A DNA stretch of 64,000 bases from Deuterostichococcus epilithicus (taxonomy: Eukaryota > Chlorophyta > Trebouxiophyceae > Prasiolales > Stichococcaceae), in NCBI GenBank assembly GCA_033439295.1, contig JAVTLE010000023.1, forward strand, positions 2,082,530-2,146,529, in the 5' to 3' direction. The position numbers were made by a program, and so were the translations under genes. The notes below the pieces were generated by a model. The model was given only the letters and a program-made list of their open reading frames with translations. It had not been told where the DNA came from and made no database searches. Each line of letters starts with the position of its first letter. Positions within the stretch are counted from its first letter, which is position 1. Below, piece by piece: positions 1,858 to 42,325 of the stretch.

Positions 1858-4800
1858 TCAGAAGATAACAAAGAAGACGTGGATGAACAGCATGTACAGG
1901 CAGACCAGGGCCCGGGCAAGGGGTCGCTGGTTGAGTGTCACTGCCAGGCGGTCCAGCTGGTGCGCTGCTGCGACCGCCGGCGGCGCATTCAGCGGCGGCC
2001 GCGCGCCGCGGACAAGGCCCGCCAGCGGCGCGAAGCCCCTGCCGCCGCCTGCAGCGAAACCCACACAAGTGCATCAGATCCACACTTCGCAGGCTCGGCC
2101 TGCGTCCACATCGAGCGGCGATGCCCAACAATGCACTGTGCAGGACGGCAGGAACAGGAGGCTGCCCACCAAATGCCACGGCCAACATGCTCGCTTGTCG
2201 CTGGTCTGAAGCACAGTAGGGCGCACCGGTCAGCATGGCGGCCTCCACGTCGAAATTGTCGTCCTCGTTCTTCTTGTTGCTGAGGAAGCCGGCGCCGGGG
2301 CGGGAGGTGGGGCCCTGCGGCCGCCGCGACGCCTCCGCCAGCTGCGCCTGCTGCGACGTCAGTTCCGCCCGCAGCGCGTGGTTCTCCGCACGAAGATTGG
2401 TCATGCTCAGCTCCTGCGGTTCCGCCAGAAGGTGTGACGCGACGTCCCAGCCCCATGATCGATGAGCACTGCCCGTACATATCCTGCACTCCGCCTCACG
2501 TTGCACTGCAAAGCAGCACGAGGACATGCGACCACTGCAGTTGGCGATGTCAGCAGGACAGACCCACCGCACGGCGGCATCGGGGACACCCTGGCAGCAG
2601 CCTCAACTGCCAAGGTACAGAAGCAGGAGCAGGCGGCACCTGCTGGGACAGCTGCTGGCGCATCTCACGCAGGCGAGCGGCTGTCTCCCCATCGCGGCCC
2701 GACAGCGGCTGCGGCGGCGGCCCGCCGCTGGGCGGCCCCTGCCGCGCCGCCAGCGCCCCCTGCAGCGCCTCGCCCCGAGCTCGCGCCTCCTGCGGGCAGA
2801 GGTGCCCCCTTGTTCACTACAGCTTCGGCATGGCCAGAGCCTCGTGCACGGCCTCTGGTGCAGTAAAACTCACACAGCAATCCCCCAACAGGTGCCTTCC
2901 CCGGAACAGCACAGCCCATCCGCGGGTGGCAGGTGCTGCTGGAATCAAGAATTTCCGCGGCACCTGCAGGGCAACCTCCAGGCGGTGCTTCTCTGCGGCC
3001 ACGCCGGCGGCGTTTGCAGCTGCCTGCTGCAGCTGGGAGCGCAGCTGCGCCGCCTCCTGACTGTCCGCCGCCGCTGCCGCCTGCGCCTCGGCAGCCTGCC
3101 CCTGCGCAGCGTCTGACGCCGCCACGGCGGCCTCGCGCTCGCGAGACAGCGCCTCAGCATGCTCCCTGCAGCACCACAATCGAGGCGTAAGCCACGCTCG
3201 AACCGAAGTGGTGGAGCCACTTCCGTCTCGGGAGGATGGCATGCTGTGGACCCGAATCCGCAATCCGCGTTGCACGCCAAGCTGCACTCCTCCGAGTGCA
3301 GCACTCGACCATCCACTTGCTGCCCCGTTTAGGCGGACGCTGCAGCTGGAGCCCTTCTGACTCCGCACGTGACGCGACACGCACCGCAGCTGCTGCAGCT
3401 CGGCCTCGAGCTGCGCCGCGCGCTCGCCGGCACCGGCGCCGGCCTGCNGNGCGGCGCTCGTCGCCGCCGCCAGCTGCTGCTGCAGCTGCCCGAGCTGCCG
3501 CGTCAGCGGCTCCTGCTGTGCTTCCATGGCGGCGCAGCGGGCCTCCGCCTCACCAGCGCGCGCCTCCGCCGCCGCTGCCACCTCGTCGGCGTCGGCGCTG
3601 CACAAAGCACAAATGCCAAACCAATGACGCGGCGACGGGAAAATTTTCTGTGCTATGCTTGCAGAGCGGTGTTGTGCACACACATAGTCGGCCACAGGCT
3701 TCCTCACGCCAGATTCTGCAGGACAGATGCCAATGCACACAGGAAGATGGTTCCACGTCAGTCAGCAGTGAAACCTCAAGCACAGCACCTTGCAGCGTGG
3801 GCGGCTTCCATCTGAGCTGCGAGCTCCTCCAGGCGCCGGCTGCCCTCCTCCGCGCTGCGCTGCAGCTGCGCCAGCTGGTCTGATGCTGCCTGCGCCTCCG
3901 CCCGCGCCGCGGCACGCGCCTGCTGCTCGTCTGCCAGCGTCTGCTGCTGCTCGTCGAGCTGGGATCGCAGCTGCTCCAGTTCTTCCTGGGGCAGCAGAGC
4001 AGTCGAACATGCTGGAGAGCGGGAGCCACACGGCAGGTTCCAAAAGAAGAGACAGCTCGGGCACCTTGCGCATGCCAGAATCACCCAACACATGCTGTGT
4101 CATCCGTCGCACAGGAACAGCTGCCCTGCACCGAAGCAATGCAGCATCTGTGGGCGTGAATCGTGCACCAGGCGTCCACCTGCAGGTCTGCGGCGCGCTG
4201 CGTGGCGGCGGCGGCGCCGTCCTGCGACGCCGCCTGCGCCTCGGCGAGGGCGGCCTCGGCATCGTCTCGCGCGGCGGCAGCGGCGTCTCGCTCCGCCATG
4301 GTAGCCTCCACCTGCTCGATCAGGCCGTCCAGCTCCCGCATCAGGCCCTCCTTCTCCTGCGGTGCCACGGCAAACGTGCATTGAGGTTTCCGGTTGTCGG
4401 CGGCTTTCACCTCGTCCTACGCTGAAACCGGTGAGCATGTGCAGCCACTGAAAAGGGCTGCGATGAGCCCTTCCACAGCAGAGACAGCCGAGCGGCCCTG
4501 CAAGGAGGATGACAAACCTGAAGGCAGGACTTGTGAATGGTGCTTGCAATCGCGGAGCGCACCAAGGTCAGCCGCTCCGCAGCGGCTGCCTGCTGCTCCA
4601 GCTCGTTGCGCAGCTCGGCCGCCTCGCCTGCGGACGCCTGCGCCGCCTCCAGCTGCTCGCGTAGGCCTCCCGTCTCCGAGTCGAAGTACGCCTGCCATTC
4701 GCTGCCCAGCGAGTCCAGCTGCGCCCGGTCCGCCTGCAAGCAAGGTGCCTTAAGCCGCTGGCTCGCTCCTGGTCCAGGAAGTGGACAGACATGAGCGAGC

Positions 4801-37224: not shown

Positions 37225-37402
37225 AGCAAAGGGGTGGCTTTCGTCGGCGTGTACCCTGAAGCATTGTGTTGTGTATCAATTAGCGTGTGTCCTCTGTTGA
37301 TTGTGCCAGGAACCGGATGGCCGCTGTTGGGTGACAATGCTTGCTTACCCAGACATTTTTCTGGACGGGGAGGAGCGAAAGAGACTGGAAAGACAGAGGG
37401 AC

Positions 37403-37407: not shown

Positions 37408-37640
37408 TGTGTCTCGGCGTCCTATTATTGCCGGCCGGTGTTGCCAGCAGTCGCCTGCATAAAACCCTCGTCCTGGCTGAAGGAAAAAAAACGATGCTTG
37501 CCTCAGCAGGGGCGTCACATCAGCAAAGGGGCCATGGCGGCACCACACTTTGCAGACAACGTTTCCTGCCCAAATAAAACCCCTCCCCCTCTCTCTCTTT
37601 CTTTCCTCCGTTGCATGCATCTTTTGTTCCGTGCCGCACG

Positions 37641-37689
37641 CTCCCTCCCTCCCTCCCTCCCTCCCTCCCTCCCTCCCTCCCTCCCTCCC
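37641..37689 (+). repeat. CTCC tetranucleotide microsatellite
   Basis: About twelve uninterrupted CTCC units directly abut the left end of the inverted-repeat island. Confidence 0.95.
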
Positions 37690-38010
37690 ACACTCTTTCC
37701 CTCTCTCTTCTCTTTCCTCCGTTGTATGCGGTTTCTTTCTTTTCTCTCCTTTATCCCTTTATCATTTAAGACATGGTTCAACGGAAAAGTCGGACGTGGC
37801 GTGCAGTGCTGGCGGCGCTTGGTCGAGAGGCCTAACCCATGAAAGCTATGCGAGCATGCAAAGGAAGAAAGTGTGATCTATTCGTTCCTTCAACTCCTTC
37901 GTGTTTCGTCCTTCTTTTCTTTTCTTTTCACAGAGCAACAGAAGAAGGCAAGAATGTACAACAGAAGCAAGTCCAAACTGGCTTTCTATTGTATGCATTG
38001 TTTTCTTCTA
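37690..38010 (+). repeat. left inverted arm of the island
   Basis: Pairs with the reverse complement of 39560-39870. It begins in a CT-rich tract beside the microsatellite. Its inner end is the first copy of the GGCTTTCTATTGTATGCATT block. An outer partial copy of its first bases also occurs at about 37590-37640. Confidence 0.7.
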
Positions 38011-38054
38011 TTTGCGCTGCAACGGAAGAAACAATGCATACAAAAGAAAGCCAG
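37978..38054. repeat. hairpin 1 of the internal cluster
   Basis: Arms of about 28 bases: the left starts CTGGCTTTCTATTGTATGCA and the right ends TGCATACAAAAGAAAGCCAG. They surround a loop that contains GCTGCAACGG. Confidence 0.75.
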
Positions 38055-38144
38055 TTCCGTTGCAGCGCAAACAGAAGAAAACAGTCCTTTCATCCGTTGT
38101 ATGCAATTTTTATTCCGTTGCAGCACCAACAGAAGAAAACAAAC

Positions 38145-38187
38145 ATACAACGGAAGAACGTCCCATCCTGGCTTTCTTCCGTTGTAT
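38145..38187. repeat. hairpin 2 of the internal cluster
   Basis: ATACAACGGAAGAA on the left pairs with TTCTTCCGTTGTAT on the right, with a loop of about 15 bases. Confidence 0.8.
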
Positions 38188-38346
38188 ACATTTTCTTCCG
38201 TTGCAGTGGCAGAAGAAGAAAACAAAACGTAAAACGGAAGAAAGCCAAGAGATTGGACTTTTTTGTCTTCTGTTGGCGCTGCAAAGGAACAAAACATGCA
38301 TACAACGGAAGGAAGGCATGTTGCGCGCGGAACAGAACAAAAAATG

Positions 38347-38391
38347 CATACAACGGAAGAAAGCCAGGATCAGACTTTCTTCCGCTGTATG
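38347..38391. repeat. hairpin 3 of the internal cluster
   Basis: Seventeen-base arms CATACAACGGAAGAAAG and CTTTCTTCCGCTGTATG with one mismatch and an 11-base loop. Confidence 0.8.
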
Positions 38392-38433
38392 TTTGTATTC
38401 TTCCTTTGGCGCTGCAACGGAAGCGAAAATCTT

Positions 38434-38474
38434 TACAACGGAAGAAGGCCAGGATCAGACTTGCTTCCGTTGTA
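38434..38474. repeat. hairpin 4 of the internal cluster
   Basis: TACAACGGAAG pairs with CTTCCGTTGTA around a loop that repeats the CCAGGATCAGAC of hairpin 3. So whole hairpin units were copied. Confidence 0.8.
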
Positions 38475-39559
38475 TGTTTGTTTTCTTCTGTTGGTGCTGC
38501 AACGGAATAAAAATTGCATACAACGGAAGAAAGGACTGTCGCGCGCGGAACAGAAGAAAATAATGGGCGTTCGCCAGGGGCGAGACGCGAGTTTGATCAG
38601 AATGCTCGAAAGGGGCCGTCGAAAGGGGAGCAGCCAGGTCGTTGATCAGGCTGGCCGAGGAATGACAGCACTGTGCAGCACCCTGTAGCGAAAACGGCCA
38701 CAGCGAAATGACGCATCGCAACATGCAGCAGCTGGCATGGCATGCTCGTGCTATTACGATCGCAGGACTCATACAGATAGCAAATCAGCACGCTCCAGGA
38801 CACTCACGGCTCGGGGTGAGGGGAAAATTCATGCAGTGTGCATGACTCAGGGCGACATGAAGTTTCCACGCCGAAAGCGCTCGCACATCACTGCAGAAGC
38901 CTTTCTGTCATCTGCTGGAACAAGCAGGCGCAAGATGCCGCATGCAGCTCAGCCGGCGAACATCCCCAGCTTGGACATGAACATTCCCCCTCGTACTTGG
39001 CAGGTGGGCGAGTAAACTTACCCACGAGCGGAAGCTGAGCAAAAGTTACACATCGTCTTAATTTTCCCTCGTCGTTGATCTCTCCGAAACGCCCCTTATG
39101 CAACCTGCTGCAGCGCGCACTGGCTGCCAGCTGCAGCAGCCGTGCAACCTGGCAGCGAACCGCACTGCAGCCGGAAGGCTTCCTAATCACAGTCTGCGTC
39201 TGGCAATCGCGAAATTTACCCTCGTTAAAGGACCAGAGGGGTTAGTCTCAGAATCATCCCCCGTTCTATGGAAAATCGTACTAAGGGCGGGGAAACGATT
39301 CTTACATCAACTCGCCAAATCTTACAACGCCGGCTGCCGGGGCGCCGTTCGCACGGCCAGCCGCAGCGCGAGGCGCCTGCCTCACGCAAGGTCTGCAGAA
39401 TGGCCCAAGGAACAGCTGACTGACCAGGGAAGACCTGAAGACGCAGACTGACACCGGCAGAAGGCGGAGGAGGTTTCCCGTCGACGACTCTTAGAGTTTA
39501 CTACGGCCAGGCGGAAACCTTGAGTGCATAAGTTTGAATCACCGAAGGTGATCAAATTA

Positions 39560-39870
39560 AAATGCATACAACGGAAGAAAGCCAGTTTGGACTTTCTGCC
39601 GTTGTACTTTTTTGCCTTCTTCGGTTGCTCCCCGTACAGGGAACAAACTAGGAACGCATACAACGGAGGAAAGAGTGAAGAAAGGATAGATCACACTTTC
39701 TTCCGTTGCATGCTCGCATAATTTTCATGGACTAAGCCTCTCGATTGAGCGCTGCCAGCGCTGACTGCACGTCACGTCCGACATTTCGGTTGAAGCATGT
39801 CTTGAAGCAGATAAAGGAGAGAAAAGACAGAAAAAGCACACAAAGGAGGAAGAAAAAGAGAGAGTGGCAG
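39560..39870 (-). repeat. right inverted arm of the island
   Basis: Reverse complement of 37690-38010 (see the element entry). It ends in an AG-rich tract that mirrors the CT-rich tract of the left arm. Confidence 0.7.
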
Positions 39871-40158
39871 CCTCAGCCCTCAGGTAACCCTGCAAAATAT
39901 GGCGTACACTAGCGTACACCCTGAAGCTTGGGGTTGTACGGTCAGTACTTTGTGCTAGCTTTCAGGGCTTGCTTCCCTACTGATACGTAACATAAATGCC
40001 GAGAGCGTTAGAGGAAGCTGGTAAGGGTGGATAAACAGAGGGTACATGTACCTCCTGAACCCTATATTTCATGAGCTGTGCTGGCCCAATCCAACCAATT
40101 GGCGCTTAATCAACTAGGACCCAGAGTTCACCACCAAGGTATCCAGAGGCAAAGCGCG

Positions 40159-42325
40159 TCATGCCACCAGCAGGGGCTCCGCCTCCGGCTGGGCAACACC
40201 ACCCGATTCCCTTGCCAGCTGGCAGAACAGACCCACGTTCTCCTCCGGGGTGCCCTGCACCACGCCGTGGCCGACGTTGAGGATGTGCCGCGCGCCGCCT
40301 GCCTGGAGCAGCGTCTGCTGCACGTTGCGCCGGATGGTGGCCTCACTGCCGAACAGCACCATGGGGTCCACATTGCCCTGAATGGTGCGCTGGCCACCCA
40401 GCGCCCGCCGCGCGTCGGCGATGTCCACCGCCCAGTCGAGGCCGATCACATCGGCGGTGCAGCCGCGCATTGACTCCAGCTTGCCTGTGCCTGCAGCAGC
40501 AGGCCCCTCTTGTCGACCTGCTGCTGTCTCCTCCTCAACGCTCAGCAGGCTGCCGCACTCATTGAGGCGACCAGGCGACCAGGTTGCATGATGTGACAGC
40601 GCTGCTGCCACGACGCCCTTGAGAAGTTCCCGAGAGCTAGAGCCTCACCTCCGTTCGCGTGGAAGATGAGCGGCGTTTCAGGATAGCGCGCCTTGACGCC
40701 ATCAATGACGCGCTGCGCATATGGCAGGCTGAACTCCTGGAACTGCCCCGGCGTCAGGTGATGCGCCCACGAGTCGAACAGCTGCACCACCTGCGAGGCC
40801 AGCACTGAGCAGCCTGGATTCTCCGCACCACCCACCGACAGTACACCCTTGGGAAAGGAGGGAGGAGGCGGGTCTTGCAAGCGATTTGAGCTGATGCCGA
40901 CGGAAAGACAGTTTCATGGACCGCGTGCTGCGGCAGGTGCTGATGCCTGCGCTGGCGCCAGCCGACTGAGCAGCGAAACACGCACTTGGGCGCCGCTGTC
41001 GATTTGGTGGCACACGTACACGATGAGCGCGTCCGTCAGCCGGTCCAGCAGCGCCGTCAGGATCTCTGGGTTGTTCATCATGATGCGCTTCGTCTGCAGG
41101 CAGTGCCTGCATGACGGGACAGCGCTGCGCATTGGTGCCTCTGATACTCCTTCACAGCCGGGCCACAGGGCAGGGGACAGCTGATCCGCGAAAGTCGTGA
41201 GGTTGGCCCTGTGCTTCGTCGGCTCAGCACGCATGACGTGCGACAGATGCTCAGGGTCATGCTGCGCCTGCAGCAGGGACCTTGTCAACTTGTGCGCAGG
41301 ATATGGGTGCATGGCGGGTAGCTGCAGCGGCTCGCCTGTCGGCGGCGCCCTCCATGGCGTACGCTGCCAGCGTCCAGGGCGCGCCGATGAAGCCCAGCAC
41401 CGTCGAAGCGTTGCCGACGTTCTGCCGCAGCGTCGACAGGATCTCGCGGATGAAGGGGAGGCTGGCGTCCGGGTCGTCCAGCGTCCGCAGCTGCCGCACC
41501 GCGTCCAGGCTGCAGGGAGCATCGGTTGCATTTTCAGCGGAAGCTGCGCTGTGCGCCTGCGGCGCCAGGATCAGACAGCAGATCGCCGGATCTCTTCAAG
41601 GCAAACGCCAGGAGTGCAGGAGCAGCGGCGCTGGGCAGGCTACGAACCTGCGCACAGGCGTCGAGATGACCGGGCCCTTGCCCTTGATGACGTCGAATTC
41701 GATTCCGAGCGCAGGCAGCGGCGTCAGGATGTCGCTGAACATTATGACGCCGTCAGGCTGAAACGCCTCCCACGGCTGCATGGACAGCTCGATGGCGATG
41801 CTGGCCGTCTCCGACCGCGTCCTGAAGGGAATCTTGTCAGAGAACCTGCACGCATGCATGATGTTTAGGGCTCAGGAGCACGGCGTCGCACTGGCAGGGT
41901 GCATCAAAATGGCGGAGCGACAGTACTGCAGGGGTGAATGAGGGTCGCACTTTCTGAAGTCTGCCATGTATCTGCCCGCCTGCCGCATGAGCCACACCGG
42001 CGTCCGCTCGGCGTCTGCGTGCAGCAGGATAAACTTTTCGCCCTGTCAACCACAGTCGCCCCGTGCGTCTTGCAGCGGGGCCGTCTGTCCCCAATGCTCA
42101 TGGCCATGCAGCATGTGCAACATGCGTGCAAGGAAGTTCTGTGCTTCGAGTGCAACACTCACCCTCGCCGCGCGCGACCCTGAGCAGTAGAGGATCCTGC
42201 TGCCCCGCTGCCGCCGCTGAGACGCATGCTTGCCGCGGCGCTCGTGGGGTGGACTTGGGACACAGCCGTGCACCACGTGCGCTTTGGTGGCTGGTGAAAG
42301 GACTGTTGCAGGCCGGCGCCCGCAT
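40159..42325 (-). CDS. uroporphyrinogen III decarboxylase, plastid type
   Basis: Removes four acetate carboxyls from uroporphyrinogen III to give coproporphyrinogen III, on the shared path to haem and chlorophyll. ATG 42325 begins [20 protein letters not shown], a transit-peptide-like start, and the exon ends [11 protein letters not shown]. The next exon has [20 protein letters not shown], the conserved RQAGRY signature that holds the active-site Arg. Then come [24 protein letters not shown] with the catalytic Asp, [20 protein letters not shown], and [20 protein letters not shown]. The later ones are [35 protein letters not shown], and [41 protein letters not shown], which carries the conserved His. 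The stop is at 40159. About eight exons give the full family length. Most plants carry more than one UROD; which one this is cannot be told. Confidence 0.94.

Follow-up and report, generated by a model that had tools for sequence, protein, structure and literature searches.

The DNA analysed here, referred to as the window, is a stretch of 64,000 nucleotides from Deuterostichococcus epilithicus (GCA_033439295.1, contig JAVTLE010000023.1, positions 2,082,530-2,146,529 of the forward strand). The genome with which it was compared is the same 46.8-Mb assembly of 21 contigs, in which the window corresponds to C19:2082530-2146529. Next to a uroporphyrinogen decarboxylase gene on the minus strand (window 40159-41531; two frames matched URO-D in Pfam) lies an island made up of a foldback structure with a second repeat inside it:

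37583-37640, unstranded: outer foldback tip, A type (likeness to six tips on five other copies)
37641-37707, unstranded: (CCCT)n run by the tip (TRF)
37701-37999, plus strand: left arm, comprising the flanking domain and the first array units (self-BLAST, shuffles)
37900-38558, unstranded: array of ~85-bp units (TRF, fold)
38559-39562, plus strand: nested ~1-kb non-coding repeat (genome search, at least 45 places)
39538-39552, plus strand: hairpin at the 3' end of the nested repeat, ATCACC-GAA-GGTGAT (z = -4.81 when 39520-39566 is folded)
39561-39864, minus strand: right arm (self-BLAST, shuffles, arm query)
39885-40044, unstranded: flank segment partly common to C14:1233538-1233647 and C9:74450-74594

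The inverted arms and what they enclose

The two arms (37701-37999 and 39561-39864) are diverged reverse complements, 78% identical over 311 columns in self-BLAST with 19 gap positions, which agrees with the length of about 310 bp proposed in the first-pass annotation; the identical order of blocks in both arms was also borne out. Could the likeness be a chance product of the CT/AG tract, as that annotation had asked? The local score of the arms is 167, against a mean of 13.6 and a maximum of 27 among 500 dinucleotide shuffles. Since the part without the tract (approximately 37765-37887 against 39680-39806) still scores 84, compared to 10 for shuffles (maximum 18), low-complexity chance is ruled out.

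From the outside inward, the layout is tip, (CCCT)n run, flanking domain and array of ~85-bp units. The sequence beyond the (CCCT)n run is common to the tips of other copies, and the left edge has therefore been moved outward, to about 37583-37600, from where it was first drawn. The inner flanking domain, from TTTCTCTTCTTTATCCGCTTCAAGACATGG onward, is present in the copies read that far. The left array of the window copy is longer than the right one. Only part of the 1.5 kb originally described as enclosed belongs to the foldback: about 0.56 kb, up to 38558, is its own hairpin array, and the remaining two thirds or so are a separate mobile repeat. Outside the right arm, the flank segment at 39885-40044 has one match beside another foldback (on C14) and one with no foldback hit nearby (on C9), and is probably an independent small repeat.

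Palindromic units without coding capacity

Each ~85-bp unit contains two palindromes, one with a stem of ~17 bp around TACAACGGAAGAAAG and the other shorter. Allowing at most one mismatch, TACAACGGAAGAAAG matches 115 + 117 places genome-wide, against 0 + 4 for a reversed control pattern; one bare motif of this type stands on C9. The foldback motif was absent from viral contigs, and a single match among prokaryote genomes, in a Bacteroidetes record, was read and judged to be chance.

In line with the first description of the island as lacking coding capacity, no evidence of coding was found. Its long open frames come from the repetitive array, which is open in more than one frame, and none of the three island frames (two in the array, one in the nested repeat) had a Pfam match above a cut-off; two matches of one array frame fell below it and were not counted. 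The Pfam set comprised ten frames in all, the others being three of neighbouring genes and four at a longer variant of the nested repeat (L041, see below); among these four, 4338-4727 is the only frame to fall entirely within that variant. ARAGORN, run with the bacterial code, found no tRNA.

Might the arrays be hairpin RNA loci, that is, siRNA or miRNA precursors retained for regulation? Two array units do fold better than their shuffles (z = -3.95 and -3.42), and transcription, if any, would give long dsRNA. However, the window has no Rfam match at the gathering threshold, array length differs from copy to copy, and the arm queries had no gene-like target elsewhere among the matches listed. 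We regard this explanation as improbable.

A dispersed family

Two arm queries against the genome found at least 13 loci on 7 of the 21 contigs, all such counts being lower bounds: five on C1, two each on C14 and C16, and one each on C10, C12, C18 and C19. Dispersed copies had been named beforehand as something that would support an element, and such copies are present. Eight of the copies are two-armed (those on C19, C12, C18 and C10, both on C14, C1:1839361-1841277 and C1:1902699-1905163), while five loci are one-armed or fragmentary. Because no arm match listed falls outside the 13 loci, the possibility that the arms are a copied gene was rejected.

Some copies have features of their own. 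A short run of the telomere type, GGGTTTA, directly abuts the C1:1902699 foldback on its left side (L058, C1:1902610-1902759). In the C10 copy, a perfect hairpin with a 14-bp stem lies on the outside of the left arm (L062/L050, C10:1510500-1510734), and the right arm has only half of it. Beyond the window, a fragment of ~44 bases at C19:2154907-2154950 matches the B tip of the C12 copy at 89%.

Tips and flanking repeats

Eighteen foldback tips could be compared at 10 loci. Seven are of the A type, three of the B type and eight of neither, and no tip is common to all copies; a CTCCCTCCC run occurs in 10 of the 18, the window tip included. The family has the long inverted arms, the repetitive arms of variable array size and the dispersed copies of FB-like elements, and no conserved terminal tips; it is accordingly filed as foldback-like in architecture, outside any named superfamily.

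At C12:3514938-3517276, the foldback is bounded by a 66-bp direct repeat (95%), whose score was reached by none of 3000 random pairs. Homology to other copies ends no more than 3 bp from this repeat on both sides; in this comparison, the B and A tips were matched against C1:2549307-2549381 and C1:1905127-1905264. The C18 copy (~1258202-1260549) has a direct repeat alike at 20 of 22 bases, 4 bp off the left edge and 14 bp off the right, which was equalled by none of 3000 random pairs when flanks of 40 or 60 bp were taken, by 0.1% at 100 bp and by 0.5% at 200 bp, the pairs being drawn from the first 1.5 kb of loci. Both look like insertions with long duplications. The other four of the six copies in the flank test (C19, C10 and both on C14) had no direct repeat in the flanks covered, which were 49-57 bases at C10, 90-113 at the first C14 copy and 23-32 at the second; C1:1902699 was left out since its right flank is too short. 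Flanking repeats were consequently found in two of six copies, in a test that a duplication of 7-10 bp would escape where the tip is uncertain. A candidate in the window (37247-37272 and 39912-39937) is alike at 21 of 26 bases, but 5-8% of random pairs equal it, and it was rejected. Candidates for the flanking duplications suggested at the outset as a mark of mobility were found at C12 (66 bp) and C18 (~22 bp), and not at the window copy or the three others.

How should such uneven edges be read? They could reflect age and exchange between copies, or else duplication and break repair. In the latter case, the island would be no transposon but a palindromic repeat that owes its spread to template switching, break repair and the duplication of segments, for the most part in regions that are subtelomeric or rich in repeats. 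The variable outer edges fit such an origin, as do pairs of copies that have different flanks in common (the window right flank with C14, for example, or C1:1905127-1905264 with C12), and the distribution of the loci, of which 5/13 are on C1 and 4/13 within ~30 kb of a contig end. Even the 66-bp and ~22-bp direct repeats are explicable by break repair. On the other hand, the copies are spread over seven contigs, and the edges of the C12 copy are exact, lying inside a flanking duplication. Spread by duplication is thus a serious contender, though on balance an unlikely one.

A second element nested in the island

The nested repeat is a family in its own right. Searches that scored 40 of 83 candidates and, with a second query, 40 of 67 gave 41 nearly full-length copies among the loci fetched by place, and the second query added four further places known only from matches of ~500 bases, which makes at least 45 places in all. 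Compared with the window copy, the nearly full-length ones are 79-91% alike; most copies of the repeat have no foldback arms.

The ends of the repeat are sharp. The 5' tip is AACAATGGGCG in most copies and AATAATGGGCG in the window copy, and the 3' tip is CTAA[A/C]A in most. In 39 of the 41 copies (the tip pattern was not found in the other two), left positions -3 and -2 are A in 34 and 34; at the right end, position 1 is A in 37, position 2 is C (16) or A (22), and position 3 is A (35). Positions next to these tallied bases carry no weight, having been dictated in part by the pattern used for the search. Beyond either tip the bases are mixed. The nearest 12 bases on the left, one of which belongs to the tip, are rich in A (0.41, compared to 0.23 at a greater distance). 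By eye, no general target duplication was seen; L010 alone looks like one. A 5' counterpart to the 3'-terminal hairpin was considered and rejected, given z = -0.51 and 58 of 200 shuffles that fold as well.

At L043, two copies stand head to tail with a single AACA in common, and AACA (AAAA in about half) is the sole sequence common to both tips. The tips and this one tandem junction make it probable that the repeat is mobilized through a single strand or a circle, with either HUH-type rolling circle or a tyrosine recombinase as the mechanism. If there were a circular intermediate, it would have a CTAACAATGGG junction.

Four diverged copies (L030, L039, L041 and L042) consist of the 1-kb part followed by a common extension of up to 1.7 kb, which at L030 and L039 runs to the end of the fetched stretch; these longer variants stand at different left flanks. 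L011 contains the last part of the extension. At L041, none of the four frames that lie in the extension or just past it had a Pfam match. C4 ends in a TTTAGGG array (L049), and within ~8 kb of this array lie the nested repeat, a truncated copy and the long variant. Such telomere repeats are in keeping with a green-algal host, and so are the large size and the GC richness of the genome. Two pairs, L020/L022 and L044/L045, have very short branches in the tree of the repeat, which point to more recent activity.

Landing in foldback arrays

The foldbacks on C12, C18 and C19 have the 1-kb repeat inside their arrays. In all three it occupies an A-rich linker that separates hairpins, and its orientation relative to the array does not vary. 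Such regularity, in 3 of 13 foldbacks, might suggest that the arms and the 1-kb middle are a single composite element, moved jointly. However, among the 40 loci retrieved by place for the 1-kb repeat (L009-L048), 37 are not foldbacks. The three foldback-borne copies also fall in three parts of a 41-copy tree, where well-supported branches require three changes and no bootstrap tree out of 200 (0%) unites them. These results indicate three separate insertions into foldbacks, not one; they contradict a composite element, which we consider barely credible.

By chance, 0.013-0.11 of the 41 copies would be expected in arrays, compared to the three observed (P = 3e-7 to 2e-4). These values overstate the case, since the window copy prompted the search and purging of genic insertions is outside the model; the foldback total of 14.5 kb behind them is itself an estimate, and the C18 stretch held ~40 flank bases.

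Comparison with known systems

The foldback resembles both Tetris and Galileo, in whose arms the arrays likewise differ in size from copy to copy. Like the island, Tetris of Drosophila virilis has a flanking domain, tandem repeats in its arms, a variable non-coding middle and no autonomous copy found (PMC4079207). Its repeats are ~220 bp and its target duplications 8-10 bp, whereas the island has palindromic units of ~85 bp, no common tip, and flanking repeats of 66 and ~22 bp at two of six copies. Galileo, a member of the P superfamily in Drosophila, likewise has long arms that are repetitive within and differ greatly in length, but it has a known transposase and makes 7-bp duplications (PMC3573991); neither was found for the island, where the transposase search covered the MULE profile. 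The 66- and ~22-bp flanking repeats exceed the 7-10 bp described for the two systems. Galileo's chimeric copies without matching duplications, described in the same paper together with exchange between copies, are a further likeness to the island.

For the nested repeat, the likeness is to other kinds of element. Helitrons begin with TC. The nested repeat begins with AACAATGGG in most copies, not TC, but its 3' hairpin followed by CTAA agrees with the CTRR end of Helitrons, and, as in Helitrons, inverted terminal repeats were not seen. Helitrons insert between A and T (PMC10741241), and no such site was found here. The RepHel profile PF14214, the one HUH-type profile used, had no hit in this genome, and it matched none of 14 control genomes either. 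On its sequence, the nested repeat resembles a Helitron at the 3' end only. Replitrons are 0.9-4 kb long, with direct terminal repeats of 5-11 bp and duplications of 2-8 bp (PMC10741241); the nested repeat falls within this size range, but the terminal repeats and duplications were not seen, and the data do not justify the name Replitron for it.

What is the island?

The island is best explained, with a probability of roughly 0.6, as an old member of a family of non-autonomous foldback transposons, with a second element nested in it later. The first-pass annotation is supported in part: dispersal and anatomy speak for such a transposon, whereas the lack of a universal tip, flanking repeats in only 2/6 copies and the presence of another repeat inside do not. 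On the best reading, this is a new family that belongs to a type already known, foldback-like in architecture and without a superfamily. Arms, array and dispersed copies are there to be seen in the genome; that the dispersal came about by transposition is what we infer from them.

The foldback would presumably have been moved by proteins made elsewhere that are now lost or were not found. A genome search with a MULE profile found no autonomous partner: the MULE transposase profile PF10551 had 0 hits in this genome and matched 3 of 14 control genomes. The arms of the foldback may then have been altered by unit expansion and by exchange between copies, and the ~1-kb non-coding element later entered the A-rich linker between hairpins. 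More speculatively, and with a good deal of doubt, the foldback may belong to a kind that makes long duplications of variable length (~22 and 66 bp) without a fixed symmetrical tip, its arrays being preferred landing sites for a new group of hairpin-ended elements that make no duplication, represented by the 1-kb repeat.

Implications

Foldback elements in flies drive inversions and seed satellite arrays, according to the literature (including PMC4079207). Among the papers found on foldback transposable elements and green algae, none deals with a family like this one, as far as titles and the beginnings of abstracts tell, and such elements appear to be little described in green algae within the literature searched. 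The three independent landings in hairpin arrays make target preference testable. The 1-kb hairpin-ended repeat is present at 45 or more places, with some of its copies forming closely similar pairs, and could be a way into a group of transposons that was active more recently and is possibly as yet unclassified.
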